In this document: positions 3,001 through 19,353 of the stretch, piece by piece | Layout: each line of letters opens with the position of its first letter | Numbering within the stretch: the first letter of the stretch is position 1 | From: Hyphomicrobiales bacterium | GTDB lineage: Bacteria > Pseudomonadota > Alphaproteobacteria > Rhizobiales > Rhizobiaceae | Length of the DNA: 64,000 nt | Assembly (NCBI GenBank): GCA_900469345.1 | Contig: UBWZ01000008.1 | Span: 124,001 to 188,000 of the forward strand | Direction: 5' to 3' | Notes under the pieces: generated by a model | Database searches by the model: none | What the model was told of the DNA's origin: nothing | Seen by the model: the letters and a program-made list of their open reading frames with translations, nothing else | Program-made: the position numbers and the translations under genes

Positions 3001-3285
3001 GAAGCCCGAAGCGACCCGGATCGTCACGTGGCGGACATCGCCCTTTTCCCGCAATTGCCGCGACGCAGCCTCGATCTGACGAAAGGCCACATCGGCGCGG
3101 TTCGGCCCCTGGTCGAGGAAGTCGTAGATGGAAGAATAGCCAAACAATCCGGCACCGGCACCGTTCGCCCACAGCGGTGCCTGCAGGTCGGGAGAAAACA
3201 GCACGACAGCGTCACCCGCGGCAAAGTGATCCCGCACGTTTTCGTGCACAGCCACGTCGATGAAAGGATATTGAACTGCTGGCAT
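1..3285 (-). CDS. cbrA: CbrA/PdhS-type PAS sensor histidine kinase, N-terminal part (C-terminus outside window)
   Basis: The frame is open from an ATG at 3285 to the window start, giving 1095 codons with no stop. It starts with a short PAS-like stretch (residues about 20-60). A long region rich in Ala, Glu, Asp and Pro follows (about 240-400 and 530-850), split by a PAS-like domain at about 400-520. A PAS domain at about 860-960 and another from about 1000 complete the visible part. The histidine kinase core should lie beyond position 1. No membrane segment is seen, so it is probably cytoplasmic. The PdhS/DivJ/PleC/CbrA kinases act on DivK to control CtrA and the cell cycle. From memory, the divergent phasin gene is also cbrA's neighbour in Sinorhizobium meliloti, which is the main reason for the symbol. 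The ribosome site before 3285 is weak. Confidence 0.7.
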   Translation of the reverse strand, partial: MPAVQYPFIDVAVHENVRDHFAAGDAVVLFSPDLQAPLWANGAGAGLFGYSSIYDFLDQGPNRADVAFRQIEAASRQLREKGDVRHVTIRVASGFQRVVIQARCALIEVHGQSTVLFSAAVEARRLNAAARAARMIEGFDDPETHMAVLGADGEIVAASSGFAALEISPQTARSLTGAASTEPSRLIKRPIPTIKGYLPAAIGMPSDDPALFLLFTVDTTSQGVAGSPAPSEDEQTHETAIPAPDGFADAIDAVADIEEADEPGEEISLVLDAPAQTELDAEDTDGGTEHLGAPDNGELSEGSLSVVEPATLTFELPAVEPQSDRLPVEADRHAALPDAEAVVADVPAAEEVTAVDALPEPEAVDTAAPQAVQDREAPLPDATELTAEDLPANAPVAEPVLAEGFVFQRDSRAIRFVWKIDGEGQFTEVSKEFAAAVGPHAADVVGMAFSDLAALFHLDPDGKITELLNKRDTWSGKTIWWPVEGTSLTVPVDLAALPTYTRTREFDGFRGFGIVRIADASEDPHAVGLSLMPQGHAPGPERDAVEDIEGEDIGGEDPRGDMDDAAIDGDDQPSEQRYLFIAEEPTPDESVADLDALARESELQAAADDQPETDTSEPAGESVGDDEASAEPASPAASAGDATIEGLDWPAGERPALRLVPTAGRRYSDKIIQLEEHRSRLSPGEQAAFREIARQLDRFIGRDDEPATDKAADPAAPLASLAEQPDADHDDKPLETAQQDGFASGESMEAELQDEPPAHDDAVATDVEQPAVPATPEAAEDAVTADEVFEEPAADVSGVSSAAADTEAEPAGEDVEAGRQTAAPDAPIEAEADAQDEVQAEAQESLSDLQLLSQMIPVRERIGLSPDIIDQMPVALLVHNGDHLIHGNPEFLKLTGYASIEELSEVGGLDALLQRQDLEDKTTEASGMVVVRANDEIIPVSARLQSVRWGDATALMLALMPVSPAAQTAPTEPGDGSDAAAMPVPARRADQTARLQVEVEELRAILETATDGVVIIDDTGEIRSMNRAASGLFNYDNEEINGRPFVVLFAHESQKAIVDYLAGLAGHGVASVLNDGREVIGREASGGFLPLFMTI

Positions 3286-3409
3286 GGGAAACCTGTCGGT
3301 GGAACCGGCAAAGGGTGAAATTAACGGATCATTAATAACCTGCTGGCCAGTTTGGGTCCACCAAGCGACCACCTAAACCGGCAACAGGGTTAATGCCGGC
3401 CGGGCATTG

Positions 3410-3438
3410 TGCACTGCAGTATAATCATTGCAATGCAC
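3410..3438. promoter_or_regulatory. TGC-rich inverted element upstream of the phasin gene (possible PhaR/AniA site)
   Basis: TGCACTGCAG at 3410-3419 and ATTGCAATGCAC at 3427-3438 form a TGC/GCA-rich imperfect inverted repeat about 90-115 bp upstream of the phasin start. Alphaproteobacterial PhaR/AniA regulators of polyhydroxybutyrate granule genes bind TGC-rich palindromes. The regulator assignment is inferred from the motif and the downstream gene only. Confidence 0.35.
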
Positions 3439-3524
3439 CCTCCGAACGACTATATTTCAGGCAAGATAACTTCGAAGCTGCCTCATTAGGCGCCGAAGTT
3501 TGCGCCGATGGAGGATGTTCAGCG

Positions 3525-3971
3525 ATGGCATACAGCACCGAAGACATGTTTTCTTTTTCCGCGTTCGACCCGGCCAAATTCGCCGAAGGCTATCGTGACC
3601 TCGCCGGCCGCGGCGCAAGCCAGTCCCAGGAAGCCTACACTAAGATGAAGGCGGCCGCAGAGGAAGCTACCCGGACGGCTGAATCCACAATTCAATCGGC
3701 CCAGGCCGGCTCCCTGGAGCTCGGTTTGCAGACGCTCGAGGCGATGCGCACCAGCGCGGACATGTCCTTGACCCACATGGAGGCCCTGATGGGGGTGAAA
3801 TCGGTGTCGGAGCTGGTGGAGCTGCAGACTTCGTTTTTCCGCCGCCAGGCCGAAGCGACCGTCGAGCAGGCGCGCGCCATCCAGAACACGGCCCGCAAGC
3901 TTGCCGAAACCGTGGCAAAGCCTGGCACCGAGGCTGCCGAAAGGATGATGGCCGGCTTCAAGGCATCCTGA
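3525..3971 (+). CDS. phaP: Phasin family granule-associated protein
   Basis: The product has 148 residues. It is Ala/Glu/Lys-rich and amphipathic helical, as in the phasin_2 family that coats polyhydroxybutyrate granules. Features include a short N-terminal segment with FSFSAFDPAKFAEGYRDLA (residues about 9-27), a long helix, and the stretch ELVELQTSFFRRQAE, which is characteristic of alphaproteobacterial phasins. There is no signal peptide or membrane segment. The frame is open upstream to 3393, but the ATG at 3525 is preferred: GAGGATG at 3511-3517 is a good ribosome site and family members begin just before the EDMFSFSAF-like motif. It is divergent from cbrA and lies upstream of tRNA-His. 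Regulation by a PhaR/AniA-type repressor is suggested by the TGC-rich element upstream. Confidence 0.88.
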   Translation: MAYSTEDMFSFSAFDPAKFAEGYRDLAGRGASQSQEAYTKMKAAAEEATRTAESTIQSAQAGSLELGLQTLEAMRTSADMSLTHMEALMGVKSVSELVELQTSFFRRQAEATVEQARAIQNTARKLAETVAKPGTEAAERMMAGFKAS

Positions 3972-4023
3972 CGGGCCGAAGGCGCAGGCACGGCAGAAAT
4001 GGCCTTTTCTCTCCGGAAGGGGC

Positions 4024-4052
4024 TTGCATAATGTGCCTGATCGCCGTATTGG
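4024..4052 (+). promoter_or_regulatory. Candidate promoter of tRNA-His
   Basis: TTGCAT (4024-4029) and TATTGG (4047-4052) are separated by 17 bp, and the predicted start lies about 23 bases before the mature tRNA. The -35 box is fair and the -10 box poor. Confidence 0.35.
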
Positions 4053-4081
4053 GACCACCGCGGCGTCAGACGCTGTTTTAT

Positions 4082-4158
4082 GCGGTTGTAGCTCAGTTGG
4101 TTAGAGCGCAGGTTTGTGGCACCTGAGGTCGGAGGTTCGAGACCCCCCAACCGTACCA
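4082..4158 (+). tRNA. tRNA-His (anticodon GTG)
   Basis: The complete cloverleaf reads as acceptor GCGGTTG paired with CAACCGT, a D-arm with GCTCAGTTGGTTAGAGC, an anticodon stem CAGGT/ACCTG with anticodon GTG at 4116-4118, a T-loop TTCGAGA, and an encoded CCA at 4156-4158. The first pair is G1:U72, the discriminator is A73, and the base before G1 is T. No G-1 is therefore encoded opposite a C73. This is the atypical alphaproteobacterial type of tRNA-His, whose partner HisRS does not need G-1. The 3' end doubles as the left copy of a direct repeat. Confidence 0.97.
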
Positions 4159-4169
4159 TTTCTCCCAAG
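4151..4169 (+). repeat. Left 19-bp direct repeat (attL-like) at the 3' end of tRNA-His
   Basis: CCGTACCATTTCTCCCAAG covers the last eight bases of tRNA-His and the next eleven. It recurs at 5674-5692 with a single C/T difference. Such repeats at tRNA 3' ends mark site-specific integration of mobile islands. Bases 4159-4174 also form a 6-bp hairpin (TTTCTC, loop CCAA, GAGAAA). Confidence 0.6.
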
Positions 4170-4371
4170 AGAAATTAGCCACTTGCAGTGATTAGAGGAA
4201 GCTAAAATCCTCAAAATTCAAATCCCCTAGACTAGCCATACCAATCGCCATAGCCCTGACAGTAGCTGCGTTTGTCCACAGAATTGGATTCGCGCCAACT
4301 TTAGGAAGGGGACCGATCGTATAACGCTGAGCAGACTCGAGCACGGGAACCTGCAAGATTCGAGACCAAGG

Positions 4372-5136
4372 TCAGAATTGAAAGCCAGTCTGATAGGATC
4401 CCTGGTCGAGACGGACGATGCCCAGGAGCGTCCATTGACGAGGGCGTTTTGCCAAGGTTCCAAGAACCAGCGCGACGCCCTTCTTCATGTACTCCTCCTC
4501 GTACTTCTCCTTCAGGCGTCGGAGCGCATCTGCCTCGCCGTAGGTCTTACTCCATCGGAAGAACGTGGCGTGGGTTTCCCAGTCGCCGCATTGATGGGTA
4601 TGCAGCCTGCCAGCTTGGTCTGTGAATGCGAAGCTCAGAGCGTAGGGGGTGGGCTCAAACGCCTCGACCTCTCGGTCGAGCATATTCACCTGCTTTGCAG
4701 CACCAATATAAGCGGCCTTCTCCACGTCAATGATCTGCTGCCGTTTCCGGCGGTGGATGAATCGGAGTGACGTTGGGCGTATCGCTGTGAGGGATCTGCC
4801 GAGCGCTGCGGCGTCCTCCACCGTTGGAGTGATGAGCGGCTCCAAAATGGCGTGCTTGTCGGCTGCACGTGATGGCCCCAGGTTCTTGAGTGTGCCTTGG
4901 AGAACTTTGCAGCTTTCTACACGCTTGTCGTGCGCATCAGGGATGAAGTCGAAGGAAACATTATCCCACCGAGTGAATTCTTCGCCGCCGTGGCGGTAGC
5001 GAATGGGATATAGGCGCTTCCACTCCCCGTCGGGAGTAACGCCTGCGCAACAGACCGTCTCAGAATATCCGCTGCTCGGGCGGGGCAGCGCCTTTACCAG
5101 GATTGTGACTTGGCAGCTTTTCCGGGTTGCGCTCAT
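4372..5136 (-). CDS. Conserved partner protein of a DUF488 gene, function unknown
   Basis: The product has 254 residues from the ATG at 5136, which follows GGACAGG. A TTG at 5154 is less likely. I recognise no named domain. The N-terminus carries ETVCCAGVTPDGEWKRLYPI, a motif shared by a family that I recall being found next to DUF488 genes. The C-terminal half has a Lys/Glu-rich helix (about residues 205-225). There is no signal peptide or membrane segment. Its first 77 bases overlap the end of the DUF488 gene in another frame, so the two are probably translated as a coupled unit. Both lie between the direct repeats at tRNA-His, which suggests acquisition together. A nucleic-acid or defence role is possible from this context but unproven. 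Confidence 0.75.
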   Translation of the reverse strand: MSATRKSCQVTILVKALPRPSSGYSETVCCAGVTPDGEWKRLYPIRYRHGGEEFTRWDNVSFDFIPDAHDKRVESCKVLQGTLKNLGPSRAADKHAILEPLITPTVEDAAALGRSLTAIRPTSLRFIHRRKRQQIIDVEKAAYIGAAKQVNMLDREVEAFEPTPYALSFAFTDQAGRLHTHQCGDWETHATFFRWSKTYGEADALRRLKEKYEEEYMKKGVALVLGTLAKRPRQWTLLGIVRLDQGSYQTGFQF

Positions 5137-5587
5137 ACCTGTCCATCTTGTCAACGAATAAGTCGAAAGAAATCAAGTCATAATCTCTAAGTTGAGTCGC
5201 GACAATCTGACGGTGGCATGTGCTCGGATCTCTCTCGTAGCACATCAGGCAGGTCAACTTCTCCATAGCGATATTTGCGACTTCCCGAACCGCCTGCTGC
5301 GCGGCCTCCGTCGCCAGATGCTTGCCAAATACTTTACGGAACGTCACGAAGTCGCCGGCACGTGCTGCCTCTCGACCGGGTTTGGGGTCGCCAAGATGCT
5401 TGGCGTGGATATATCGTATTCCATGCTTCTCCAGCCGCGCGGCTAACCCGTTCTTGGAGAATCCTTTCTTCCGCGAGACGGTCACCGCTCTGACATCGAC
5501 AAGGACCTTCACGCCGACGACCTCGAGTGTCTTAACAAAGTCGTCGATGTTCGACCCCTCGTATCCAATCGTCATCAAGCTCGGCAT
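5060..5587 (-). CDS. DUF488 family protein
   Basis: The product has 175 residues. It shows the DUF488 hallmarks: an N-terminal TIGYEGSNIDDFV, a middle segment with LVDVRAVTVSRKKGFSKN (about 30-47), and the C-terminal motif CYERDPSTCHRQIVA (about 116-130), whose Cys, Glu and CHR residues are conserved in the family. There are no membrane segments. The ATG at 5587 follows AAAGGA at good spacing. DUF488 proteins are widespread, are of uncertain biochemistry, and often occur in accessory regions with a second conserved gene, as here. The gene reads toward tRNA-His and is the promoter-proximal gene of a two-gene unit. Base use in and around the pair is more AT-rich than in the flanking genes, consistent with transfer. 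Confidence 0.85.
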   Translation of the reverse strand: MPSLMTIGYEGSNIDDFVKTLEVVGVKVLVDVRAVTVSRKKGFSKNGLAARLEKHGIRYIHAKHLGDPKPGREAARAGDFVTFRKVFGKHLATEAAQQAVREVANIAMEKLTCLMCYERDPSTCHRQIVATQLRDYDLISFDLFVDKMDRYERNPEKLPSHNPGKGAAPPEQRIF

Positions 5588-5673
5588 GTGATTCCTTTCA
5601 TCCGGACGTCGTCGTTGTCCATAATCGAGCTTGCTCGAGAATGGACTTTGACTACTCGGACCATAAGCATGTT

Positions 5674-5692
5674 CCGTACCATTTCTTCCAAG
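5674..5692 (+). repeat. Right 19-bp direct repeat (attR-like)
   Basis: CCGTACCATTTCTTCCAAG matches the tRNA-His 3' end copy at 4151-4169 in 18 of 19 positions and in the same orientation. It sits 28 bp beyond the stop of the CorA-type gene, so the 1.5 kb between the copies appears to have been inserted between tRNA-His and that gene. Confidence 0.6.
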
Positions 5693-5719
5693 CCCATCCT
5701 CGACGAAAATAGTGCTGGT

Positions 5720-6685
5720 TCAAAGCCATCCGACGCGCTTGAAGCGCCAGTAGAGATAGGCGCACAGGCTCGCGATCACGCCGAGGATCACGTAGTAGCC
5801 ATAGGTCGCCTTCAGCTCCGGCATGTTTTCGAAGTTCATCCCGTAAATCCCGGCAATGGCGGTCGGAACCGCGGCGATCGCCGCCCAGGAGGCGAGCTGC
5901 CGGGTGATCGCACCCTGGCTCTGCTGCTCCAGGAGGTTGCTGGCCTCGAACACCGAGGTGATCACGTCCTTCAGGCCGCTGACCATGCTGTCGACCCTTC
6001 GCACATGGTCGTAGACGTCGCGAAAGTATTTCTGGGTTTCCCGGTCGATGCAGGGAAGGTCGAGATTGAGAAGCTTGCCGCAGACCTCCGTCATCGGACC
6101 GAGCACACGCTGGAAGCGGATCAGCTGCCGGCGCAGGCGAAACAGGCGCTTGATTTGGTCGCGCCCGAGCACCGCGTCGAGCATGTGCTGCTCCATTTCC
6201 AGAACCCGGTCTTCCACCGTCTGGACCACCGGCAGGTACCCGTCGACGATGAAGTCGAGGACGCCGTGCAGCACGTAGTCCGGGCCTTTCCTCAGGATCT
6301 GCGGTGCCGTTTCCAGCCTCTGGCGCAACGCGCTGTGACCGCGATCGGACCCATGTCGCACCGTGATGACGTGGTGCGGGCCCACGAAGATTGCCGTCTC
6401 GCCGTATTCTATGGAATCGCCCTCCAGATGGGCGGTCTTGGCGATGATGAAGAGCTGGTCGTCGTAGACATCGACCTTCGGCACCTGCCGCCCGCCGAGC
6501 GCATCCTCGATCGCCAGGTCATGCAGCTTGAACGTCTTCTGCAGCGCGACGAGTTCAGGCTCTGCCGGGTCATGCAGACCGATCCAGACGAAACCGTCGT
6601 CACTGTCCGGCACCTTGTCGCTGCCGGCGTTAAAGGTACCGGTCCGCTTGCCCTTGTTATAGATATAAGACGCAACGATGCTCAT
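5720..6685 (-). CDS. CorA family divalent metal ion transporter
   Basis: The product has 321 residues. The N-terminal two thirds form the cytoplasmic alpha/beta and long-helix domain of CorA-type channels. The C-terminus has two membrane helices with the signature YGMNFENMPEL after the first (about residues 279-289). GMN is the selectivity motif for Mg2+ and related ions in the inner membrane pentamer. The ATG at 6685 was chosen because it gives the usual family start (SIVASYIYNKGKR). An upstream ATG at 6769 would add 28 residues of unusual composition, and neither has a strong ribosome site. The gene lies 80 bp downstream of a conserved hypothetical gene on the same strand and is probably co-transcribed with it. 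The exact ion (Mg2+, Co2+, Ni2+ or Zn2+ export) cannot be told from the sequence. Confidence 0.88.
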   Translation of the reverse strand: MSIVASYIYNKGKRTGTFNAGSDKVPDSDDGFVWIGLHDPAEPELVALQKTFKLHDLAIEDALGGRQVPKVDVYDDQLFIIAKTAHLEGDSIEYGETAIFVGPHHVITVRHGSDRGHSALRQRLETAPQILRKGPDYVLHGVLDFIVDGYLPVVQTVEDRVLEMEQHMLDAVLGRDQIKRLFRLRRQLIRFQRVLGPMTEVCGKLLNLDLPCIDRETQKYFRDVYDHVRRVDSMVSGLKDVITSVFEASNLLEQQSQGAITRQLASWAAIAAVPTAIAGIYGMNFENMPELKATYGYYVILGVIASLCAYLYWRFKRVGWL

Positions 6686-6765
6686 GTCGGGACGGAACTC
6701 TTGGCTCAGGGGCGGGACTCGGCGGATCGCCGCTCGGTGGAGAAGACCCCTGTAGATCATGACGC

Positions 6766-7242
6766 TCATGCATCGTGAAAGACTTTTCCTTCGGCCAGTT
6801 TCGACGCCTTGTGGAACACCTGTGCGAGGCGGATGCGGTCCTCGCCGAGCTTCAGGATCACGCGGTCGACCTTGCGGACGGTCGCGATATCCACGCGGCT
6901 TCGTGCATTCGCCGGCCGGCGGCTGTCGGGCATCGGCCGCACCAGGAGCGGCGCGCCGACATTCTCTTGGAACTGCGCCAGCATCATGCCCGTCTTGATC
7001 ATGCCGGAGCGGATGTGCACTCTGTTCTCCGTTGCGATCACCACCCGGAAGGCGTTGATCAGGGCGTCCTTGGTCGCCGGCAGTTCGCTTGCATCGAACA
7101 CGCTGTCGCCGGTCTCGTGCTCGCGCAGGAAGATCAGGAAGGCATCGACGAGACGATGGGCTGCCTCCAGGACGCTTGCATCGGTCGGGCCCTTCAATGG
7201 ACCTTCCGCGGTGCTTTCCCAGAGTGTCGGCAGTGAACGCAT
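6766..7242 (-). CDS. Conserved hypothetical protein upstream of the CorA-type gene
   Basis: The product has 158 residues, is soluble and mixed alpha/beta, and has no signal peptide, membrane segment or motif I recognise. The N-terminal half contains predicted helices (SVLEAAHRLVDAFLIFLREH). The middle has many basic residues and a segment rich in Asp, Arg and Val. The ATG at 7242 is preceded by GAGG at acceptable spacing. The gene is first in a probable two-gene unit with the CorA-type transporter 80 bp downstream, so a link to metal homeostasis is possible, but that is inference only. Confidence 0.7.
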   Translation of the reverse strand: MRSLPTLWESTAEGPLKGPTDASVLEAAHRLVDAFLIFLREHETGDSVFDASELPATKDALINAFRVVIATENRVHIRSGMIKTGMMLAQFQENVGAPLLVRPMPDSRRPANARSRVDIATVRKVDRVILKLGEDRIRLAQVFHKASKLAEGKVFHDA

Positions 7243-7368
7243 GGAAGATCCTCGGATTGACCGACGAGAAACGCGCGGTTTCGGTTTTGGTTCGCCGAGG
7301 GCGCGCTCGCCGCGGTCACCCGGAGATCAAAAAGTTAACAATATTTTTGTGCGCTGCAATATTAGGTA

Positions 7369-7396
7369 TTGCCGCTGCCCCAAGATCGTCTATCTA
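7369..7396 (+). promoter_or_regulatory. Candidate promoter for the structured leader/sRNA upstream of the HTH gene
   Basis: TTGCCG (7369-7374) and TATCTA (7391-7396) are 16 bp apart. The predicted start is near 7403, directly before the first of three hairpins. Confidence 0.35.
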
Positions 7397-7402
7397 TTGT
7401 GC

Positions 7403-7479
7403 ACTGGCGGCCTAGTTTCTAGGCGTCAAGTCTCTCGGGCTCAAGCCCGCCCCTTTCCCCGCCGCACCGGCGGGTTTTT
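7403..7479 (+). ncRNA. Candidate small RNA or attenuator leader with three hairpins and an intrinsic terminator
   Basis: Three perfect hairpins follow one another: GCCTAG-TTT-CTAGGC (7410-7424), CGGGCT-CA-AGCCCG (7436-7449) and CCCGCCG-CAC-CGGCGGG (7458-7474). The last is followed directly by TTTTT (7475-7479), a classic intrinsic terminator. A plausible promoter precedes them, giving a transcript of about 77 nt. The terminator sits only 15 bases before the ATG of the HTH gene. The RNA could be a free sRNA or a leader that limits read-through into that gene. No RNA family was identified. Confidence 0.5.
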
Positions 7480-7494
7480 GTGGAAGGAACGACA

Positions 7495-7740
7495 ATGACT
7501 GTTTCGATGAAAAACTTTCACGCCTCCGCCGACAACACGCTGGCGCCGGCTCAGGTTGCTCTTCTGGTTGCTGAAGCACGCCAGGCTGCCGGTTACAGCG
7601 TCGAGGATCTTTCGGTGACCACCGGTCTCGTCAACGACGAGATCGTCAGCATCGAGAACGGCACTGACCTCGACCCGGGCAAGCTGAAGCGCGTCGCTGC
7701 AGCGCTCAAGGTTCCGGTCGCGACCTTGCGTCAGGCCTGA
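7495..7740 (+). CDS. Small helix-turn-helix (Cro/CI-type) DNA-binding protein
   Basis: The product has 81 residues. After a 20-residue lead, the region 23-78 fits an XRE/Cro-type five-helix fold: LLVAEARQAAGYSVEDLS, then TTGLVNDEIVSIENG and LKRVAAALKVPVATL. It has no other domain. The ATG at 7495 follows GGAAGGAAC at 7482-7489. Because an intrinsic terminator ends 15 bases before the start, expression may depend on read-through or antitermination. The gene lies between two structured RNA candidates and converges on a LysR gene. The target is unknown. Confidence 0.72.
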   Translation: MTVSMKNFHASADNTLAPAQVALLVAEARQAAGYSVEDLSVTTGLVNDEIVSIENGTDLDPGKLKRVAAALKVPVATLRQA

Positions 7741-7744
7741 TCCA

Positions 7745-7822
7745 AAGGCTCGACCCGCACCTTAAAGGTGGAGGTCTTGTTGCTGGCCGGTTCCCTTAGG
7801 GAGCCGGCCGCATTCGTTTATG
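7745..7822 (+). ncRNA. Candidate small RNA between the HTH and LysR genes (possible suhB/MmgR, alpha-r8-like)
   Basis: Two strong stem-loops fill the 93-bp gap between convergent genes. The first has an outer stem GACC/GGTC and an inner stem CACC-TTAAA-GGTG (7752-7776). The second is GGCCGGTTCCC-TTA-GGGAGCCGGCC (7785-7809, 11 bp with one G-U pair) followed by a short T-rich tail. The loop side of the first contains GGTGGAGG. From memory, S. meliloti MmgR, a 77-nt sRNA of the suhB type, lies between an HTH gene and a LysR gene, which is the arrangement here. That match is recollection, not a computed alignment. The second hairpin may merely be a bidirectional terminator. Confidence 0.45.
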
Positions 7823-7833
7823 GGGCCGTCGCC

Positions 7834-8727
7834 CTAAAAGACGAAGATGTCTTTTTCGTCGTCGACCAGTTCCTTCAGAAACGCGACGACGGTCTTCAGC
7901 CGCAGCAGGTCTCGCGTCGTCTCGTGATAGGTCGTCCAGTAGGACCGTCGGATCGCCGCATGCGGCAGCAGGCGGACGAGTTCCGGATATTGTCGCGCCA
8001 CGTAGTCGTGCAGGATGCCGATGCCGGCGCCCGAACGGACCGCTTCCGTCTGCCCGATTGCGCTTGAAATCTCGAAGCCCGCGTTCCAGTTGCGCATGAT
8101 CTCGCCGGTAAAATCGAGCGACGGCGAAAAGATCAGGTCCTCGACATAGCCGATCCGCGCGTGACCCCGCAGGTCCTCGACCGTTTCGGGTCGGCCGTTC
8201 TGCGCGAGATAGGAGCGGGCGGCATAAAGGGAGAGCGTGTAATCGGTCAGGCGGGACGAAACGAGACGGCCCTGGTCCGGGCGCTCGATGGTGATGGCGA
8301 TATCGGCCTCGCGCTGCGACAGGGAAAAGGAGCGCGGCACCGGCACCAGCTGGACCTTCAGTTCGGGATGTCTCCGGGTCAGCCGGCCAAGCCGCGAGGC
8401 GAGAAACGAGACGCCGAAGCCGTCCGGCGCGCCGATCCTGACCGTGCCGGCAATGGCCGTGTCGACCCGCCCCGTCGCTGCCTGAGCATCGAGCATCTCG
8501 GCCTCCATACGCTCGGCGGCGCGAAAGAACGCTTCGCCCTCGACCGTCAGCATGCAGCCGTTTGTCCGCCGGATCAGCAGGCTCGTCCCGAGCGCATCTT
8601 CGAGCGCCGTTATGCGCCGTCCAAGCGTCGCATGGTTGATGCCCAGCCGGCGGGAGGCAGACAGGATCTGCCCGGCGCGGGCAGCAGCAAGAAACAGGCG
8701 GACGTCATCCCAGTTCACGGCAAGCAT
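7834..8727 (-). CDS. LysR family transcriptional regulator
   Basis: The product has 297 residues. The N-terminal winged helix-turn-helix (about 5-64) has the LysR hallmark residues, with SASRRLGINHATLGRRITALE as recognition region. The rest is a periplasmic-binding-protein-like effector domain beginning near VRIGAPDGFG (about 95). The length is normal for the family. It starts at the ATG at 8727. It is divergent from mmsA with a 101-bp shared promoter region that holds an 8-bp inverted repeat, so it probably controls mmsA and itself. The inducer cannot be read from the sequence; an intermediate of valine, propionate or inositol breakdown would fit the target gene. Confidence 0.9.
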   Translation of the reverse strand: MLAVNWDDVRLFLAAARAGQILSASRRLGINHATLGRRITALEDALGTSLLIRRTNGCMLTVEGEAFFRAAERMEAEMLDAQAATGRVDTAIAGTVRIGAPDGFGVSFLASRLGRLTRRHPELKVQLVPVPRSFSLSQREADIAITIERPDQGRLVSSRLTDYTLSLYAARSYLAQNGRPETVEDLRGHARIGYVEDLIFSPSLDFTGEIMRNWNAGFEISSAIGQTEAVRSGAGIGILHDYVARQYPELVRLLPHAAIRRSYWTTYHETTRDLLRLKTVVAFLKELVDDEKDIFVF

Positions 8728-8742
8728 CCCGATGTCGAAAAA

Positions 8743-8781
8743 TGCACAACCGATGCGTAAACAACGGCGTTGCGTTGTGCA
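8743..8781. promoter_or_regulatory. Inverted-repeat operator candidate between lysR and mmsA
   Basis: TGCACAAC (8743-8750) and GTTGTGCA (8774-8781) are perfect inverted copies with centres 31 bp apart, about three helical turns. They lie in the only gap between the divergent regulator and target. LysR regulators bind as tetramers to spaced dyads, so this is a reasonable primary site. The pairing to this regulator is inferred from position. Confidence 0.5.
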
Positions 8782-8828
8782 ATATGAGGGTTATCCTTCC
8801 CGTCAACGAAAACCGGGAGGATTAGCTC

Positions 8829-10325
8829 ATGCGTGACATTGGACATTTCATTGGCGGCCAGCGCGTTGCCGGCACCAGCGGCCGCACGGCCAACGTCTTC
8901 AACCCTGCGACAGGGGAGGTCCAGGCGACCGTAGCTCTGGCCGACCGTTCGGAGCTTCGGGCGGCTGTTGAAAACGCCAAGGAGGCGCAGCCGAAATGGG
9001 CAGCCACCAATCCGCAGCGGCGCGCACGCGTATTCATGAAGTTCGTCGACCTCCTCAACCAGAACATGGATGAGCTGGCCACCCTGCTGTCCAGCGAGCA
9101 CGGCAAGACGGTCGAGGACTCCAAGGGCGACATCATCCGCGGTCTGGAAGTCTGCGAATTCGTCATCGGCATTCCGCACCTCTCCAAGGGCGAGTTCACC
9201 GAAGGCGCCGGCCCGCAGATCGACATGTATTCCATCCGCCAGCCGGTCGGCATCGGCGCCGGCATCACGCCCTTCAACTTCCCCGGCATGATTCCCATGT
9301 GGATGTTTGCACCGGCCATCGCCTGCGGCAACGCCTTCATCCTCAAGCCGTCCGAGCGTGATCCTTCACTGCCGATCCGGCTCGCGGAGCTGATGATCGA
9401 GGCGGGACTGCCTGCCGGCATTCTCAACGTCGTCAACGGCGACAAGGCCGCGGTCGATGCGATCCTCGAAGATCCCGATATCGGCGCGATCTCGTTCGTC
9501 GGCTCGACGCCCATCGCACGCTACGTGTATGGAACGGCTGCCATGAACGGCAAGCGCGCGCAGTGCTTCGGCGGCGCCAAGAACCACATGATCATCATGC
9601 CGGATGCGGATCTCGATCAGGCCGTCAACGCCCTGATGGGCGCCGGATACGGATCGGCCGGCGAGCGCTGCATGGCCGTTTCCGTGGCCGTCCCGGTGGG
9701 CGAGGAAACCGCCAACCGGCTCGTCGAGAAGCTGACGCCCAAGATCGAGTCGCTGCGCATCGGCCCGTACACGGACGACAAGGCCGACATGGGGCCGGTC
9801 GTGACAAAGGAAGCCCAGGCGCGCATCAACGGCCTCATCGACAAGGGCGTCGAACAAGGCGCGAGCCTCGTCGTGGACGGTCGCGGCTTCAAGCTGCAGG
9901 GCTATGAAAACGGCTATTTCGTCGGCGGTTCGCTGTTCGACAACGTCACGCCGGACATGGACATCTACAAGACCGAGATTTTCGGTCCCGTCCTGTCGGT
10001 CGTGCGGGCGCAGACCTACGAGGAAGCCCTGTCGCTGCCCATGAAGCACGAATACGGCAATGGCGTCGCGATCTTTACCCGTGACGGCGACGCTGCCCGG
10101 GATTTTGCAAGCCGCATCAATATCGGCATGATCGGCATCAACGTGCCCATTCCGGTGCCGCTCGCCTACCACTCCTTCGGCGGCTGGAAGGCCTCCTCCT
10201 TCGGCGACCTCAACCAGCATGGAACGGACTCGATCAAGTTCTGGACCCGCACCAAGACCATCACCGCCCGCTGGCCGTCCGGCATCAAGGACGGCGCGGA
10301 ATTCGTCATGCCGACCATGAAATAA
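8829..10325 (+). CDS. mmsA: CoA-acylating methylmalonate-semialdehyde dehydrogenase
   Basis: The product has 498 residues and is an aldehyde dehydrogenase superfamily member over its whole length. The MmsA/IolA subfamily is shown by the start IGHFIGGQRVAGTSGR, the segment PFNFPGMIPMWMFAPAIACGN (about 151-171), and the catalytic cysteine in GSAGERCMAVS (about residue 283). The typical aldehyde dehydrogenase catalytic glutamate is absent, as in CoA-acylating members. It converts methylmalonate or malonate semialdehyde to propionyl-CoA or acetyl-CoA with NAD+ in valine and myo-inositol catabolism. The ATG at 8829 follows GGGAGGATTAG. It stands alone, divergent from a LysR gene. From memory the orthologue in S. 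meliloti is called iolA. Confidence 0.93.
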   Translation: MRDIGHFIGGQRVAGTSGRTANVFNPATGEVQATVALADRSELRAAVENAKEAQPKWAATNPQRRARVFMKFVDLLNQNMDELATLLSSEHGKTVEDSKGDIIRGLEVCEFVIGIPHLSKGEFTEGAGPQIDMYSIRQPVGIGAGITPFNFPGMIPMWMFAPAIACGNAFILKPSERDPSLPIRLAELMIEAGLPAGILNVVNGDKAAVDAILEDPDIGAISFVGSTPIARYVYGTAAMNGKRAQCFGGAKNHMIIMPDADLDQAVNALMGAGYGSAGERCMAVSVAVPVGEETANRLVEKLTPKIESLRIGPYTDDKADMGPVVTKEAQARINGLIDKGVEQGASLVVDGRGFKLQGYENGYFVGGSLFDNVTPDMDIYKTEIFGPVLSVVRAQTYEEALSLPMKHEYGNGVAIFTRDGDAARDFASRINIGMIGINVPIPVPLAYHSFGGWKASSFGDLNQHGTDSIKFWTRTKTITARWPSGIKDGAEFVMPTMK

Positions 10326-10333
10326 TGGTCTTG

Positions 10334-10366
10334 CGCGAAGAGGGTCGGCACGCCGCCCTCTTCGCG
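10334..10366 (+). terminator. Strong hairpin after mmsA
   Basis: CGCGAAGAGGG (10334-10344) pairs perfectly with CCCTCTTCGCG (10356-10366) eight bases after the mmsA stop. No T-tract follows, so it may act as an mRNA 3' end stabiliser as much as a terminator. Confidence 0.6.
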
Positions 10367-10386
10367 ATCCGACCCCTCCGCACCCA

Positions 10387-10414
10387 TTGACGTACAGGGA
10401 TACCGCTCTATTTT
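10387..10414 (+). promoter_or_regulatory. Promoter of the 43-residue membrane protein gene
   Basis: TTGACG (10387-10392) and TATTTT (10409-10414) are 16 bp apart, with a ribosome site AGGAGTGGGGA and an ATG 34 bp further on. Confidence 0.5.
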
Positions 10415-10447
10415 AGGCGGCTGAGTAGGAGTGGGGAGCTCTGTTCA

Positions 10448-10579
10448 ATGACATATGAATGGGACGTCAGGCGTGCCCGCCGCTCGCGGCTGACCAGGTG
10501 GAGCATGACCCTCGGGGCCGTTGCCCTGGCTGTCGGAATTCCGATCTGGATCATGATGGATCTCGGCCTGATCGGCTGA
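10448..10579 (+). CDS. Small single-span membrane protein, 43 residues
   Basis: The ATG at 10448 follows a good purine-rich ribosome site (AGGAGTGGGGA, 10427-10437) and a clear promoter. The peptide has a strongly basic N-terminus (VRRARRSRLTRW, residues 7-18) followed by one hydrophobic segment (about 20-42: MTLGAVALAVGIPIWIMMDL). This predicts an N-in, single-span inner membrane protein. I recognise no family. It lies between mmsA and rirA. Its function is unknown. Confidence 0.6.
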   Translation: MTYEWDVRRARRSRLTRWSMTLGAVALAVGIPIWIMMDLGLIG

Positions 10580-10736
10580 CCAGCCAATCCTTGCATCTGA
10601 TCGAGCGCGACATGCATGCTCGCGGGCTGTCTCGCAGCGCCTGTTGCCGCGGTCTTGAGAAAGGCGCCGCACGTGCGCCAAGGCCGTTTTGTCGCATGGC
10701 GGCGACCGCTCGCAAACATGAGCGAAGTTTTCTTAT

Positions 10737-10772
10737 TTTGGAATTGTTCAAAACTTCCGTAGCCTTTATATA
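10737..10772 (+). promoter_or_regulatory. Irr-type ICE box overlapping the rirA promoter
   Basis: TTTGGAATTGTTCAAAA (10737-10753) matches the palindromic ICE consensus TTTAGAA-N3-TTCTAAA at 12 of 14 fixed positions. It overlaps TTGTTC (10744-10749), which with TATATA (10767-10772) makes a -35/-10 pair of 17-bp spacing. Binding there by Irr, the haem-responsive iron regulator of rhizobia, would block the promoter. The call rests on motif, position and the downstream iron regulator. Confidence 0.6.
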
Positions 10773-10799
10773 AGCTCTTTGAGAGTCCGGGAGACGACA

Positions 10800-11285
10800 A
10801 TGCGTTTGACCAAGCAGACCAACTACGCTGTGCGCATGCTGATGTATTGCGCCGCCAATGATGGGCATCTGAGCCGCATCCCGGAAATCGCCCGTGCCTA
10901 CGGCGTCTCGGAGCTCTTTCTGTTCAAGATCCTGCAGCCGCTGAACAAGGCCGGCCTGATCGCCACCGTGCGCGGACGCAATGGGGGCGTGAAGCTTGGA
11001 CGCGCGGCCGACAGCATCACGCTGTTCGACGTGATCAAGGTGACCGAAGACAGCTTCGCCATGGCCGAGTGCTTCGAGGACGGCGCCGTCGAATGTCCTT
11101 TGGTCGACAGCTGCGGCCTGAATTCGGCACTGCGCAAGGCGCTGAACGCGTTCTTCGAAGTCCTCACGGAATACACGATCGACGATCTGGTCAAGGCGCG
11201 CCCGCAGATCAACTTCCTGCTCGGCATCGACACGGTCAACCTGCCCAAGGTCAGCGTTCCGAAGATCGCGGCACCGGCAGCCTGA
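10800..11285 (+). CDS. rirA: RirA, Rrf2-family rhizobial iron regulator
   Basis: The product has 161 residues. An N-terminal Rrf2 winged helix (about 1-65) begins MRLTKQTNYAVRMLMYCA. Three cysteines at residues 91, 99 and 105 (CFEDGAVECPLVDSC) ligate the iron-sulfur cluster in this family. RirA senses iron and cluster status and represses iron uptake genes when iron is plentiful. The length and all key residues are intact. The ATG at 10800 follows GGGAGACGAC. The promoter carries an Irr-type box, which would join the two main iron regulators of these bacteria. A 7-bp hairpin terminator follows 28 bp after the stop, so the gene is monocistronic. Confidence 0.92.
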   Translation: MRLTKQTNYAVRMLMYCAANDGHLSRIPEIARAYGVSELFLFKILQPLNKAGLIATVRGRNGGVKLGRAADSITLFDVIKVTEDSFAMAECFEDGAVECPLVDSCGLNSALRKALNAFFEVLTEYTIDDLVKARPQINFLLGIDTVNLPKVSVPKIAAPAA

Positions 11286-11313
11286 GTTCCAAGCAACTAT
11301 CATTCACGACAAG

Positions 11314-11336
11314 TGCCGGCGTCTGCCGGCATTTTT
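11314..11336 (+). terminator. Intrinsic terminator of rirA
   Basis: TGCCGGC-GTCT-GCCGGCA (11314-11331) is a 7-bp stem with a 4-base loop, followed by TTTTT. Confidence 0.85.
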
Positions 11337-11428
11337 CGTTCCGGGGACGAGGCTGGTCTCGGCGGTTGACATCGCGGAACGTTTCAGCCCCTCTGCGCCA
11401 ATCAGTCGGTGGCATGAAGGAAGTGACT

Positions 11429-11977
11429 ATGGAGAAATCGGCGAGGGCAGTCGTCGTAATGGGAGTGAGCGGGGCCGGAAAGACCTCGGTCGCTCAGGAC
11501 CTGGCCGCGCGGCTGGGCTGGACGTTCGTCGAGGGAGACAAGCTCCACCCGCAAGCCAACATCGAGAAAATGGCGCATGGAACGCCGCTGAACGACGATG
11601 ACCGCTGGCCCTGGCTCGATCTCATCGGTGCGGAACTCTCGGCATCGACGTCCCGAGGCGAGAGCATCGTCGCCACCTGCTCGTCGCTCAAGGTCAGCTA
11701 TCGCGAGCGGTTGCGCACCGCGGCCGGCGGCACGCTCTACTTCGTTTTCCTCAACGGCTCGGAAGAGCTTCTGTCGGTGCGCATGGGAGAGCGCCAGGGG
11801 CACTTCATGCCGACATCGCTCCTGCAGAGCCAGCTTGCCACGCTCGAGTCCCCGGAAGGCGAGCCGGGGGTTGTCACCGTCGATATCGACGCTTCGATAG
11901 ACGTCATTGTCGATCGCGCGATCAGCGAGCTGGAAAACCTCTGGAACGCGCCATCAGGGCAAGCAGATCGTCCCTGA
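11429..11977 (+). CDS. gntK: Gluconokinase (thermoresistant type)
   Basis: The product has 182 residues. The P-loop GVSGAGKT is at about residues 13-20. The gluconokinase signature EGDKLHPQANIEKMAHGTPLNDDDR follows at about 37-61 (HP and the N/D residues bind gluconate). A conserved GHFMP is at about 128. It phosphorylates D-gluconate to 6-phosphogluconate with ATP in the cytoplasm. The ATG at 11429 follows GAAGGA at 11416-11421. The frame stays open far upstream into rirA, but that part is not coding. No gluconate transporter adjoins it. Confidence 0.92.
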   Translation: MEKSARAVVVMGVSGAGKTSVAQDLAARLGWTFVEGDKLHPQANIEKMAHGTPLNDDDRWPWLDLIGAELSASTSRGESIVATCSSLKVSYRERLRTAAGGTLYFVFLNGSEELLSVRMGERQGHFMPTSLLQSQLATLESPEGEPGVVTVDIDASIDVIVDRAISELENLWNAPSGQADRP

Positions 11978-12046
11978 TTTCGCCAACGCGACAGAGATTT
12001 GCCTCACGTTTCTTCAGAATAGTCTGCTTAAGTGATCCAAAATTTA

Positions 12047-12066
12047 GTCTTGTGCGTTTAAGACTG
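12047..12066. promoter_or_regulatory. Inverted repeat upstream of the tetR gene (operator candidate)
   Basis: AGTCTT (12047-12052) and AAGACT (12061-12066) are perfect inverted copies 8 bp apart, in an AT-rich stretch 74 bp before the TetR gene. Size and place suit a TetR autoregulatory operator. Confidence 0.35.
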
Positions 12067-12139
12067 AAATTGGAAGGCCCGGGCTCGAGATCGTAGTTTG
12101 TCTCGGGCTGCGGGGGCAGTCTCAGGAGACGAAATTCGC

Positions 12140-12799
12140 ATGCAGGATGGTCACAATGGCGGCAGCGGTGTCATGCTTCGGCGGATGCCAAAGCAGGAGA
12201 GAAGCCGGGACCGCATCGACGAGATCCTCAAGGTTTCCATGGATCTCATCGGTCAAAAGGGCATAGACGCGGTGACGATGAAGGAGATCGCATCTCTTTC
12301 GGGCGGCCCGATTGCGTCGGTCTACCAGTATTTCCCGAACAAGTCGGCGATCATCGCCACGCTCCACGAGCGCTACATCGAGGAAGTCAGGCAGCTGGTC
12401 GCCGAACACGTCTCGACGGTCGAAAGCGTCGACGATGCGATCGACATGACCGACAAGCTCTTCGACATCTACTACGAGCTGATGCGCGCCAAGCCGGCAA
12501 CCCAGGATCTGCTCAACGCGGTCCAGGCGGACAAGGCCCTGGCGGACCGTGATGTGAGCGAGATCCGCTTCCAGGCCAACGTGATCTATGAAGGCACCAT
12601 GCGGTTCGTGCGCGAGCAGTTGCGCGAGAGCTACCGCAGCACGCTCTTCCTGATGTCGAGCATGGCGGCGGCAACGCTTCGTCTTGCCCTGATGGTGCCG
12701 GCCGACGAGGCGCGGACGATCGTGGCGCAGTTCAAGTCCGTCGTCCGGGTCCAGGCAACCTACTTCTTTACCGGCAGCTATCCGCAACAGACCGTCTGA
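12140..12799 (+). CDS. TetR family transcriptional regulator
   Basis: The product has 219 residues. The TetR DNA-binding domain covers about 18-65, with the helix-turn-helix MKEIASLSGGPIASVYQYFP and the usual FPNKSAIIATLHERY continuation. The C-terminal part is helical and ligand-binding, with no recognised ligand. The ATG at 12140 follows CAGGAGA (12123-12129). An open frame reaches back to 12098 but without a ribosome site. It converges on the puuB-like gene, two bases apart at the stops, so it is not in that operon. Control of the amine genes next door is possible but not shown. Confidence 0.88.
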   Translation: MQDGHNGGSGVMLRRMPKQERSRDRIDEILKVSMDLIGQKGIDAVTMKEIASLSGGPIASVYQYFPNKSAIIATLHERYIEEVRQLVAEHVSTVESVDDAIDMTDKLFDIYYELMRAKPATQDLLNAVQADKALADRDVSEIRFQANVIYEGTMRFVREQLRESYRSTLFLMSSMAAATLRLALMVPADEARTIVAQFKSVVRVQATYFFTGSYPQQTV

Positions 12800-12800
12800 G

Positions 12801-14102
12801 TTATAGCCCCAGCCGGTCGCGCAGCCCGTACCACCAGGCGCCGACGGCCGTCAGCGGTACGCGCAACGCGCGTCCGCCGGGGAAGGGAAGGTTGGGCAGC
12901 GATGCCCAGACGTCGAAGCGCTCTGCATGGCCGGCCACCGCTTCCCCCAGGATTTTGCCGAGAAGATGCGTCGTGGTGACGCCGTGGCCGCTGTCGCCGT
13001 GCGAGAAATAGACCCGGTTCGACAACCGCCCCATGTGCGGTATGCGCGTCAGCGTCAGCGCGAAATTGCCGCTCCATGCATAGTCGATGCGCACGTCCTT
13101 CAACTGCGGAAAGGTCTTCAGCATGTTTGGGCGGATGACGGCAGTCAGGTCCTTCGGGTCGTGTCCGCCATAGCCGATGCCGCCGCCATAAAGCAGTCGG
13201 TTGTCGGCAGTGCGACGGTAATAGTCGAGAATGTAGTTGGCGTCCTCGACGCAGTAGTTGGCCGGAAGCAGGCTTTCTATGATTTTCGCATCCAGCGGCT
13301 CGGTCGCCATCACCTGCGAGGATACCGGCATCATGCGGCCCGAGACCTCCGGCAGCAGCGGCGCCAGATAGGCATTGCCGCAGACCAGCACGTAATCTGC
13401 GCTGACCGATCCCCCGCCCGTCCGAACGAGGGGCCGCTCGCCATCCGTTTCAAGAGCGGTGACGCGGGAGCCCTCGAAGATGCGCCCGCCGAGGTTTTCG
13501 ACGGCCGCCGCCTCGCCGAGCACGAGATTGAGCGGATGGATATGGCCGCCTAAGCGATCGATCATGCCGCCTTCGTATCGGTCGCTGTCGACGTAGCGGC
13601 CGACCTCGGCCTTTGAAACCATTTCCAGCCCGCCATGGCCGTAGGTCTCCCACTCGGCCTTCGACCGCGCCATCTCCCGCACCTGCTTTTCGGTAAACGC
13701 GGCAAAGAAGCCGCCCGGCACCAGATCGCAGTCGATGGCGTATCGGGCGACGCGCTGGCGGATGATCTCTCCGCCCTCCAGCGACATTTCGGCCAGTTTG
13801 ACGGCCCGTTCGCGGCCATAGCGTCCCGCAATGGTTTCCAGATCCCGACTGTAGCCGTTGACGATCTGGCCGCCGTTGCGGCCCGACGCGCCGAAGCCTA
13901 TCCGTTCCGCCTCGAGAACCACGACAGAATAACCGCGCTCCGAAAGCTCCAGCGCTGCCGAAATGCCGGTAAAGCCCGCGCCGATGATACAGATGTCGGC
14001 ACGGATCTCCCCCTCAAGCACGGGGCGCACGCGCTTGTCACTGGCCGACGCAGCGTACCAGGAGTTGGCATGGCGGGGGTTGTCGGCAGGTTTGAAGGCC
14101 AT
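12801..14102 (-). CDS. FAD-dependent amine oxidoreductase, gamma-glutamylputrescine oxidase-like
   Basis: The product has 433 residues of the DAO (D-amino acid oxidase) fold. The N-terminal Rossmann motif ICIIGAGFTGISAALELSERG (about 37-57) ends in the ribose-binding acidic residue of VVVLEAE. FGASGRNGGQIVNGY (about 69-83) is typical of PuuB/OrdL. The C-terminal GDSGHGVTTTHLLGK completes the FAD site. PuuB oxidises gamma-glutamylputrescine to the aldehyde with release of ammonia and peroxide. It lies two bases after the puuA-like gene on the same strand, which strongly supports the pathway call. It starts at the ATG at 14102. Specificity for putrescine rather than another amine is inferred. 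Confidence 0.85.
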   Translation of the reverse strand: MAFKPADNPRHANSWYAASASDKRVRPVLEGEIRADICIIGAGFTGISAALELSERGYSVVVLEAERIGFGASGRNGGQIVNGYSRDLETIAGRYGRERAVKLAEMSLEGGEIIRQRVARYAIDCDLVPGGFFAAFTEKQVREMARSKAEWETYGHGGLEMVSKAEVGRYVDSDRYEGGMIDRLGGHIHPLNLVLGEAAAVENLGGRIFEGSRVTALETDGERPLVRTGGGSVSADYVLVCGNAYLAPLLPEVSGRMMPVSSQVMATEPLDAKIIESLLPANYCVEDANYILDYYRRTADNRLLYGGGIGYGGHDPKDLTAVIRPNMLKTFPQLKDVRIDYAWSGNFALTLTRIPHMGRLSNRVYFSHGDSGHGVTTTHLLGKILGEAVAGHAERFDVWASLPNLPFPGGRALRVPLTAVGAWWYGLRDRLGL

Positions 14103-14104
14103 TG

Positions 14105-15463
14105 CTACACCGTGCGGATATAGGCGTCATACTCCACGTCGGTGACGCGCAGCGCGAATTCGGAAAGCTCCTGTTGCTTGCAGGCCGTGTAGAGGGACCG
14201 GTATTTGGGCCCGAGCGTCACATAGGCAAAGCTCGAACGCGAAAACTGCGCCAGCGCGTAATCCCAGTTCGTCGGCAGCGGTTCGTGGCCGACCGCATGC
14301 GCGTCGCCGGTGATCGCGCCGCCGGGATTGCGCTTCTCCTGGATGCCGACCAGGGCGGCGCTGAGGATCATCGCCAGAACCAGGTAAGGATTGCTGTCGG
14401 CGCCGGCGACCCGGTGCTCGATCCGCGTTGCGGGCTTGGATGCGGTGATCACCCGCACGGCCGCCGAGCGGTTGTCGAACCCCCAGGACGCAAAGGTGGG
14501 CGCATGCTCGCTCGGCGTCATGCGGCGATAGGAGTTGGCGTGCGGCGCGAAGATCGCCATGCTCTCGCCCATGTTCTCCAAAAGCCCGCCGACGGAGTGA
14601 AAGAGGGCTTCCGACGGGCCATCCTCTCCCACATAGACGTTCCGTCCGCTCTCGTCGATCAGCGAGAAATGCACATGCATGCCGCTTCCGGCCTGGGTGC
14701 CGTAGGGCTTTGCCATGAAGGTCGCATCGAGATCGTTGGCGCGCGCCACGCCCTTGACGATGCGCTTCAGAAGCACCGCGTAGTCGGCCGCCCGCAGTGC
14801 ATCGGGAACATGGTTGAGGTTGATCTCGTACTGGCCCGGGCCGTTTTCGCGTAGCGTCGTATCCGCCGGTATCCCTTGGGCCCGTGCCGCACTGGCGATG
14901 CCGTGGAACACGTCCTCGAAATCCTGAAGTTCCGAGATCGACAGCACCTGGGTCTGGCCGGTGTGCCACCGGCCGTCCCGTGAATTGGGCGGACGCACCG
15001 GATCGAGCGCCGAGCGGACCGGATCGATCAGATAGAACTCGAGCTCGGTTGCGACGACCGGCGTTAGTCCGATCTTGGCAAAACCCTTGAGCACATTGGC
15101 AAGCACCTGTCGGGGGTCGCCGTAAAAGCCGTTTCTCTCGCTGTCCTGCATGCCGAGCAGCACCTGGGCGGTCGGCCGGTTAAGCCAGGTGACGCGCGAC
15201 AGCGTGGCCGGAACCGGGAAGCAGATCCCGTCCGGATCGCCTGTGCCTTCGGCAAGGCCCGCCGCATTGACGTCCCGACCCCAGACGTCCAGCGCGTAGA
15301 CGGAGCGCGGCATCGCCATGCCGTGGGTAAGCACGTCGAGGGCTCGGTCGCGTGGGATCCACTTGCCCCGCGGTACCCCGTTCGCATCGATCACGAAGGC
15401 CTCGAGAACCTCGATGTCCGGATTGCTCTCGAAAAAGCTCTGGGCGGCGCTGATATCATCCAT
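14105..15463 (-). CDS. Glutamine synthetase-like gamma-glutamylpolyamine synthetase
   Basis: The product has 452 residues and is a type I glutamine synthetase fold over its full length. An N-terminal beta-grasp domain (about 17-110) includes GVPRGKWIP. The catalytic domain has the metal-binding VVATELEFYLIDP (about 136-148), GQYEINL (about 208) and the ATP/Glu site around AGSGMHVHFSLID (about 256-268). These suit the GlnA3/PuuA/GlnT group, which joins glutamate to an amine rather than to ammonia. It is the middle gene of a minus-strand group with the puuB-like gene (2-bp gap) and a dadA-like gene (49 bp upstream). PuuA and PuuB start the gamma-glutamylated putrescine route to GABA. The aldehyde dehydrogenase and hydrolase of that route are not in the window. 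Confidence 0.85.
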   Translation of the reverse strand: MDDISAAQSFFESNPDIEVLEAFVIDANGVPRGKWIPRDRALDVLTHGMAMPRSVYALDVWGRDVNAAGLAEGTGDPDGICFPVPATLSRVTWLNRPTAQVLLGMQDSERNGFYGDPRQVLANVLKGFAKIGLTPVVATELEFYLIDPVRSALDPVRPPNSRDGRWHTGQTQVLSISELQDFEDVFHGIASAARAQGIPADTTLRENGPGQYEINLNHVPDALRAADYAVLLKRIVKGVARANDLDATFMAKPYGTQAGSGMHVHFSLIDESGRNVYVGEDGPSEALFHSVGGLLENMGESMAIFAPHANSYRRMTPSEHAPTFASWGFDNRSAAVRVITASKPATRIEHRVAGADSNPYLVLAMILSAALVGIQEKRNPGGAITGDAHAVGHEPLPTNWDYALAQFSRSSFAYVTLGPKYRSLYTACKQQELSEFALRVTDVEYDAYIRTV

Positions 15464-15512
15464 GAAACACCAGATAGCCCAGTCCTTGGGGCAGGGCTAG
15501 GACCAGTCGGTC

Positions 15513-16760: not shown

Positions 16761-16976
16761 GTTTTTCAGATCCCGTCTTCTAGTCTTTTTGGATGACAGA
16801 CCATGCCGCCGAGGATGCTGCGGTGCAAATGAAAAATCGCCGTCCTTCCGCGCATCCCGGAAATCTTTGTCGACGTCCGTAAGGGACAAGGCCCGCCTGT
16901 CGCGACGTGCCAGACATGATCCGCCGACGAGCGGTCAGAACTTGATGAAAGTCAAAAATGGCTTGACGATTGGCGC

Positions 16977-19337: not shown

Positions 19338-19353
19338 AAGGATGAGATGAGGA

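Follow-up and report, generated by a model that had tools for sequence, protein, structure and literature searches.

A short islet beside tRNA-His, probably left over from a phage-derived integrative element, with a candidate defence gene pair as retained cargo

When a short stretch of DNA lies directly behind a tRNA gene, is bounded by copies of the tRNA 3' end and encodes no integrase, the question arises of whether it is a minimal mobile islet moved by the enzyme of another element or what is left of a larger one. Both readings had been put forward for a 1.5 kb islet at tRNA-His in the window considered here (the whole stretch of DNA analysed, 64,000 nucleotides, from a Hyphomicrobiales bacterium). 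The answer was sought in the boundaries of the islet, in the same locus of related genomes, in larger relatives and in the gene pair carried as cargo.

The islet and its tRNA-His target

ARAGORN identified tRNA-His(GTG) at positions 4082-4158 as the sole tRNA of the window and, given this span, the left copy of a 19-bp repeat (4151-4169) consists of the last 8 bases of the tRNA and of 11 bases downstream. The right copy (5674-5692) has the same orientation, is identical at 18 of the 19 bases and lies at a spacing of 1,523 bp, confirming the repeat of the original prediction; the tRNA 3' end recurs at the far boundary of the islet, with the tRNA part accounting for 8 bp of the 19. With up to two mismatches allowed, the repeat was matched at these two places only in the 4.9 Mb genome, and when the 3 kb beyond the tRNA were resampled 3,000 times with a first-order Markov model, a tRNA-tail repeat of 19 bp with at most one mismatch never arose. 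The features of the locus are the following.

4082-4158, plus strand: tRNA-His(GTG), the insertion target (ARAGORN), its 3' part presumed to be element-supplied
4151-4169, plus strand: left repeat copy, last 8 nt of the tRNA and start of the left arm
4159-4371, plus strand: left (attL-side) arm, non-coding, 48% GC, aligning to the left end of the Sinorhizobium fredii element
4372-5154, minus strand: PDC-M19B-like protein, 260 aa (PADLOC PDC-M19B, E 5.1e-34)
5060-5587, minus strand: DUF488 protein (PDC-M19A), 175 aa, first of the overlapping pair (Pfam PF04343, E 6.2e-31; PADLOC PDC-M19A, E 2.8e-30)
5588-5673, no strand: upstream region of the gene pair; blastn homology to the S. fredii element stops at about 5599, with weaker similarity beyond
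5674-5692, plus strand: right repeat copy, read as 8 nt of displaced native tRNA 3' end and native flank
5720-6769, minus strand: corA-type transporter gene (PF01544), the native tRNA-His neighbour in genomes G016 and G005

Between the repeat copies, the two overlapping minus-strand ORFs at 4372-5154 and 5060-5587 are those with family matches, the six other ORFs having no Pfam match below E 0.1 (best value, 0.14). Neither an integrase nor a relaxase was found among the two main and the six further ORFs (by Pfam, and by PADLOC for the main two), so that the integrase expected of an autonomous integrative element or satellite is absent from the ORFs between the repeats, as had been stated. The earlier description of a 'DUF488 gene pair' holds for the presence of two genes and fails for the family of the second, since this partner (M19B, for which an internal start near 5136 is likely) has no Pfam match at E up to 1. 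The AT-richer non-coding DNA that had also been described is represented by the left arm, the 48% GC of which compares with 57% for the genes and 62% for window positions 3001-20000, islet included.

The tRNA-His locus was mapped in all 57 genomes available for the genus, the contig of G027 stopping soon after the tRNA. In G016 and G005, the best two DNA matches outside the window genome for the segment preceding the tRNA, empty sites were found: the distance from the tRNA CCA to the corA 3' end is 34-36 bp, compared with approximately 1.56 kb in the window, which from about position 5714 onward aligns with G016 at 83% and with G005 at 78%. The DUF488/M19B pair lies at tRNA-His in only two of the 57 genomes (the window genome and G045), rather than in all relatives, and the downstream repeat corresponds in islet-free relatives to the native tRNA 3' end, as insertion predicts. 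The proposal of an insertion at tRNA-His is strengthened by these empty sites and by the presence of the same cargo, or of the same end, at tRNA-His in other genomes.

The partner protein of G045 has approximately 92% amino acid identity to that of the window. There, the pair is placed directly at tRNA-His, without the left arm and in a different flank, namely between the tRNA and a presumably NrsF-like gene; in six related genomes with a called ORF the NrsF-like gene is found less than 170 bp from tRNA-His and the pair is absent. As the flanks of the pair differ between G045 and the window, separate arrivals are likely. Weaker M19B relatives are present in G030 and G051, away from tRNA-His. 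In G047 (L062), corA is 1.49 kb from tRNA-His, with a 432-aa minus-strand ORF in between (+96 to +1394), for which no relation to the islet was found; it appears oxidoreductase-like by eye, and it is possibly another insertion at the same place.

That the pair belongs to an ancestral tRNA-His neighbourhood, lost in the relatives, with the repeat arising by chance, is hardly credible: its patchy distribution would fit such a history, as nothing else does, and two genomes of 57, with two different flanking contexts, the empty sites of G016 and G005, a repeat never reproduced by resampling and the homology of the islet to the end of an integrative element, described below, all speak against it.

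Larger relatives and the structure of the element ends

A larger relative was found through protein search in S. fredii USDA 205, where tRNA-His is followed by the same left arm, by the pair and by further DNA up to the end of the contig, approximately 37.5 kb on. Islet positions 4159-5599 align with S. fredii positions +2 to +1452 at 74% identity (over 1,461 bp), covering the left arm and both genes, which identifies the left part of the islet as the end of such an element, its leftmost 215 bp or so being a conserved element end. The S. fredii right end gave, against positions 5561-5700, only blastn matches of chance length, as a remnant deprived of that end should, and it is the left end that carries the parentage; the deletion junction is presumed to lie between about 5600 and 5674.

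A second S. fredii contig carries a displaced tRNA-His half, TTGTGGCACC to CCA, which begins TTGTGGCACCTGAGG, the duplication thus starting in the anticodon loop. At 22 bp past this half lies a LysR gene; its product shares 74% identity with the LysR of the window (over 293 aa) and is of a family that is found near tRNA-His in many genomes of the genus. Just inside the attR end is a 519-aa integrase (PF00589, E 2e-5, which is below the curated cut-off; phrog_1, E 3.2e-12). The two element ends have in common an exact 23-bp repeat and an inverted TTGTCCACA, which may be interpreted as integrase arm sites. The left arm of the islet holds one CCATACC (4236-4242), where S. fredii has two adjacent units, and TTGTCCACA (4272-4280); both motifs are present at both ends of the S. 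fredii element and would also be arm-type sites of the integrase. As the two ends are on different contigs, we infer that they belong to, and join into, one element. Its sequence (L260/L261) includes McrBC, an RNase H/AAA helicase-like protein and weakly ZorA/ZorB-like genes, which gives it the look of a defence island set in a frame of phage origin.

G022 has the same non-coding left end (identity to the window, 68% over 186 bp; to S. fredii, 73% over 193 bp), but in this genome the cargo differs and consists of a 252-aa protein with no Pfam match at E 0.001. Comparison of the locus among relatives, as originally proposed, has therefore yielded alternative cargo (G022) along with empty sites. 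Within the G022 insert (L059, approximately +23 to +1065 after tRNA-His), the start of the 252-aa protein looks signal-peptide-like, and a degenerate tRNA-like sequence was seen by eye on the opposite strand near the right side of the insert (approximately +1115 to +1180). A tRNA-like remnant had also been considered in the islet itself, to the right of tRNA-His (about 4190-4242, with a T-loop-like TTCAAATCC); G022 and S. fredii have other letters there and conserved blocks elsewhere in the alignment, and for this reason the reading of the region as an element end was retained. In DNA searches with the left arm, 394 family genomes (8 of them listed under the window genus) gave the window genome and two short weak matches. 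A 28-base pattern with up to three mismatches matched the window genome alone, and a 19-base pattern matched nothing in IMG/VR. In the genus of the window, nothing intermediate was found that combines this left arm and the pair with some of the phage genes, which counts against the remnant reading.

The phage connection is provided by L205 (IMG/VR contig 3300046520_000239, 53 kb, classed as linear), of which 16.8 kb were read. It carries the pair (M19B identity, 68%) in the gene order integrase, attP, pair, and has matches to an endolysin, an integrase and a DNA-transfer (ejection) protein, the PF00589 match of the integrase being below the Pfam cut-off. The pair adjoins a tRNA half site, which we read as tRNA-Thr. 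Eleven of the 18 L205 proteins searched match the S. fredii pieces, and the matches are split: the pair and three neighbours are on the attL-side contig, and six, in order, precede the integrase on the attR-side contig. The order in S. fredii is that of L205 opened at attP. The other seven proteins, including the endolysin, the DNA-transfer protein and the integrase, are unmatched in the S. fredii stretches, so that the S. fredii element shares the phage frame and may not be a full prophage but an island of phage origin.

In the genus itself, the islands of G023 and G014 resemble the window in having tRNA-His as target. They differ from the islet in carrying an integrase, of the same family as that of S. 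fredii (42% identity), and tRNA repeats of 51 bases (100% and 90%) that start from the anticodon stem and are 21-26 kb apart; no M19B relative was found in them. The integrase is at the far end of the islands (G023, L083/L094; G014, L084/L095), and genes of the defence type are found near both ends (AAA_15/DUF3696, GmrSD, and one DNA methyltransferase-like by eye). ICEs adjoining tRNA-His are mentioned for Mesorhizobium in PMC8627217.

Against this background, the right copy of the islet repeat lacks the anticodon-to-T-arm part that is duplicated in the S. fredii and G023/G014 elements. The 42 bases where a half-tRNA would precede it show no resemblance to one (Smith-Waterman score, 6, matched by 144 of 300 shuffles). 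It is read here as a truncated attR. Beyond the CCA, it agrees with the left copy for 11 bases (one mismatch), a match that simple truncation does not need and that can be a product of chance in T-rich tRNA flanks.

These features bear on the proposal of a minimal mobile islet or satellite, a short cargo between functional att sites whose crossover would fall within the 19-bp repeat and whose integrase would be supplied in trans by another element. A non-chance repeat at both boundaries is what it predicts; small cargo forms do occur at tRNA-His in three genomes of the genus (window, G045, G022), the pair having different downstream neighbours in the window and G045 and the shared left arm of G022 being joined to a different 252-aa ORF; integrases of tRNA-His islands exist in the genus, and the window genome has six Phage_integrase matches elsewhere. 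However, in the larger relatives the tRNA duplication begins in the anticodon stem or loop, a region missing from the right copy, one of the two S. fredii CCATACC arm repeats is missing as well, the right-side repeat of the tRNA tail was not seen in G045 or G022, and relatives of the S. fredii or G023 integrase were absent from the window genome at E 1e-20. This part of the original prediction is therefore disfavoured, and it is now regarded as unlikely. A broader version, in which tRNA-His of the genus is home to a family of cargo islets without an integrase, linked by a common element end (window, G022) or by common cargo (window, G045) and moved in trans by integrases of other elements through an unusual crossover at the last tRNA bases, is a long shot; if it were true, a defence cassette would hop between hosts without a recombinase of its own. 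The presence of the pair at tRNA-His in G045 without the left arm does imply that small forms recur, and these could be something other than remnants.

The DUF488 and M19B pair

The gene pair fits the PADLOC candidate defence pair PDC-M19, in which the M19A (DUF488) and M19B genes are adjacent; it is alike in the profile matches of both proteins and in the gene overlap, and differs from this system, which is listed as a candidate, by its location on a tRNA-anchored remnant. AlphaFold2 models of M19B and DUF488 have mean pLDDT values of 90.5 and 90.2, respectively. The top Foldseek matches of M19B are mostly OB-fold nucleic-acid binders, baculovirus LEF-3 (E 7.8e-4) being the sole one below 0.001; telomere end-binding proteins, POT1 and SSBs are among the further matches, with low whole-chain TM-scores. 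On the basis of the model, M19B is a probable dual OB-fold, nucleic-acid binding protein. For DUF488, Foldseek gave nothing at E 0.001 or better, and sequence searches of solved structures revealed no credible relative of either protein. The invariant residues of DUF488 in 50 sequences include Asp31, Arg33, Cys116, Glu118, Cys124, His125 and Arg126, a set compatible with an enzyme. In the literature searched, no paper was found on PDC-M19 or on DUF488 with a dual OB or OB-fold protein, and among the available portions of papers on DUF488 with defence or phage none was judged to describe this pair.

Pairwise dN/dS values were 0.03-0.11 where they could be calculated, four of the six M19B comparisons yielding no ratio; the purifying selection may stem from life in the element and not in the host. 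The two genes have different closest relatives: window DUF488 is closest to that of S. fredii (91.5% aa), and window M19B to that of G045 (92.5% aa), with only 67% to S. fredii, which indicates that recombination has acted on the pair. M19B was also observed in two forms, 65-68% identical, compared with 82-92% for DUF488 (window versus L116 and L205), a pattern that suggests exchange or diversification of M19B. Discordance of this type would be expected if the cargo had come within a chromosomal segment taken up through homologous recombination, with a relative already bearing the remnant as donor, rather than through decay in this lineage. We consider such an arrival quite improbable, because the islet is bounded by the tRNA 3' end and by the native corA side, and G045 lacks the left arm and has a different flank.

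The pair is widespread. A scan of a species-genome collection confirmed 195 related stretches, and relatives were found on 55 viral contigs. In 77 of the 80 loci kept from the 195, a DUF488 match is present (those without it are L138, L175 and L194), and 76 of these matches start upstream of the M19B match at a distance of 418-505 bp; for L184, the best M19B match was at another place. The viral integrase survey with PF00589 was made on 37 of the 55 viral records: a Phage_integrase match was obtained in nine of the 37, at less than 2 kb from M19B in five, at the opposite end of the contig from M19B in one and 8.7-40 kb apart in three. An HMM grown from three integrases and applied to 135 loci recovered only the L205 integrase itself. 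A tRNA lies within approximately 1.5 kb beyond the M19B 3' end in five of the 80 loci (His twice, Thr, Ser, Glu), always on the opposite strand, compared with three of 80 (L131, L166, L184) within 1.5 kb on the DUF488 side. By these counts, the pair is repeatedly, though not universally, placed next to an attachment site, and no enrichment is shown.

Two further observations concern other genomes. In Microvirga alba (L145), tRNA-Thr(GGT) is found on both sides of an M19 pair, 8.6 kb apart, which is possibly another tRNA-bounded island. Gordonia phages (TimTam, Nymphadora and others; seven phage records) have a weak M19B relative (29%), at a place where the annotation has gene 43 (hypothetical) and gene 44 (immunity or transcriptional repressor).

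Origin of the islet

Taken together, the islet is most probably a decayed remnant of a phage-derived integrative element that has kept cargo from the end of the element. This view is supported by the insertion between tRNA-His and corA, by the homology that links the left arm and both genes with the S. fredii element and by the reduction to 8 bases, in the right copy of the window, of a tRNA duplication that in the larger elements starts from the anticodon region; of the alternatives first put forward, that of a remnant which kept its cargo is the one best supported. In the proposed sequence of events, the parent element would have inserted at tRNA-His by means of a tyrosine integrase with the anticodon loop as its site of action. 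The pair would have been end cargo, as in the larger relative, where attL lies on one side of it and further phage-related genes on the other, the integrase being located at the opposite end of the element. One or more deletions would then have joined the DNA upstream of the pair to the displaced tRNA half, 8 bases inside it, with loss of the remaining element, integrase and crossover region included. With these lost, the islet would be fixed in place, and probably it can no longer be excised by an integrase of the S. fredii type. The pair would have stayed intact owing to a benefit for the host: it would probably be a two-protein antiphage system, in which the sensing or binding of nucleic acid would fall to the dual OB-fold protein and the enzymatic role to DUF488.

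As what is left of a phage-derived element, the islet would be an object of a known kind. The islet resembles a CIME in having no integration or transfer genes, and the closest known remnants in its tRNA target, in the left end and cargo that were kept, in the loss of the integrase and in the flanking repeats. It differs from those derived from an ICE or IME in that the parent looks phage-derived, only approximately 1.5 kb remains and the right att is missing the region that the larger relatives have in duplicate, which makes it probably not a functional attR. Rousset et al. (2022, PMC9122126) describe hotspots in prophages and satellites where antiviral systems are lodged beside int. Like these hotspots, the islet holds candidate defence cargo in a slot at the end of the element, with the integrase or att site close by; unlike them, it concerns alphaproteobacterial elements, with a slot that in L205 abuts attP opposite int and a defence role that is a predicted one.

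Thus, the tRNA-His locus offers an example of a candidate defence pair beside an attachment site that would have outlasted the element that brought it, and a comparable series made up of a larger relative, a relative on a phage contig, a remnant and an empty site. For a pair found well beyond the window, in species genomes and on viral contigs, the prediction that M19B, a protein with no Pfam family to place it, is a dual OB-fold nucleic-acid binder makes its function directly testable.
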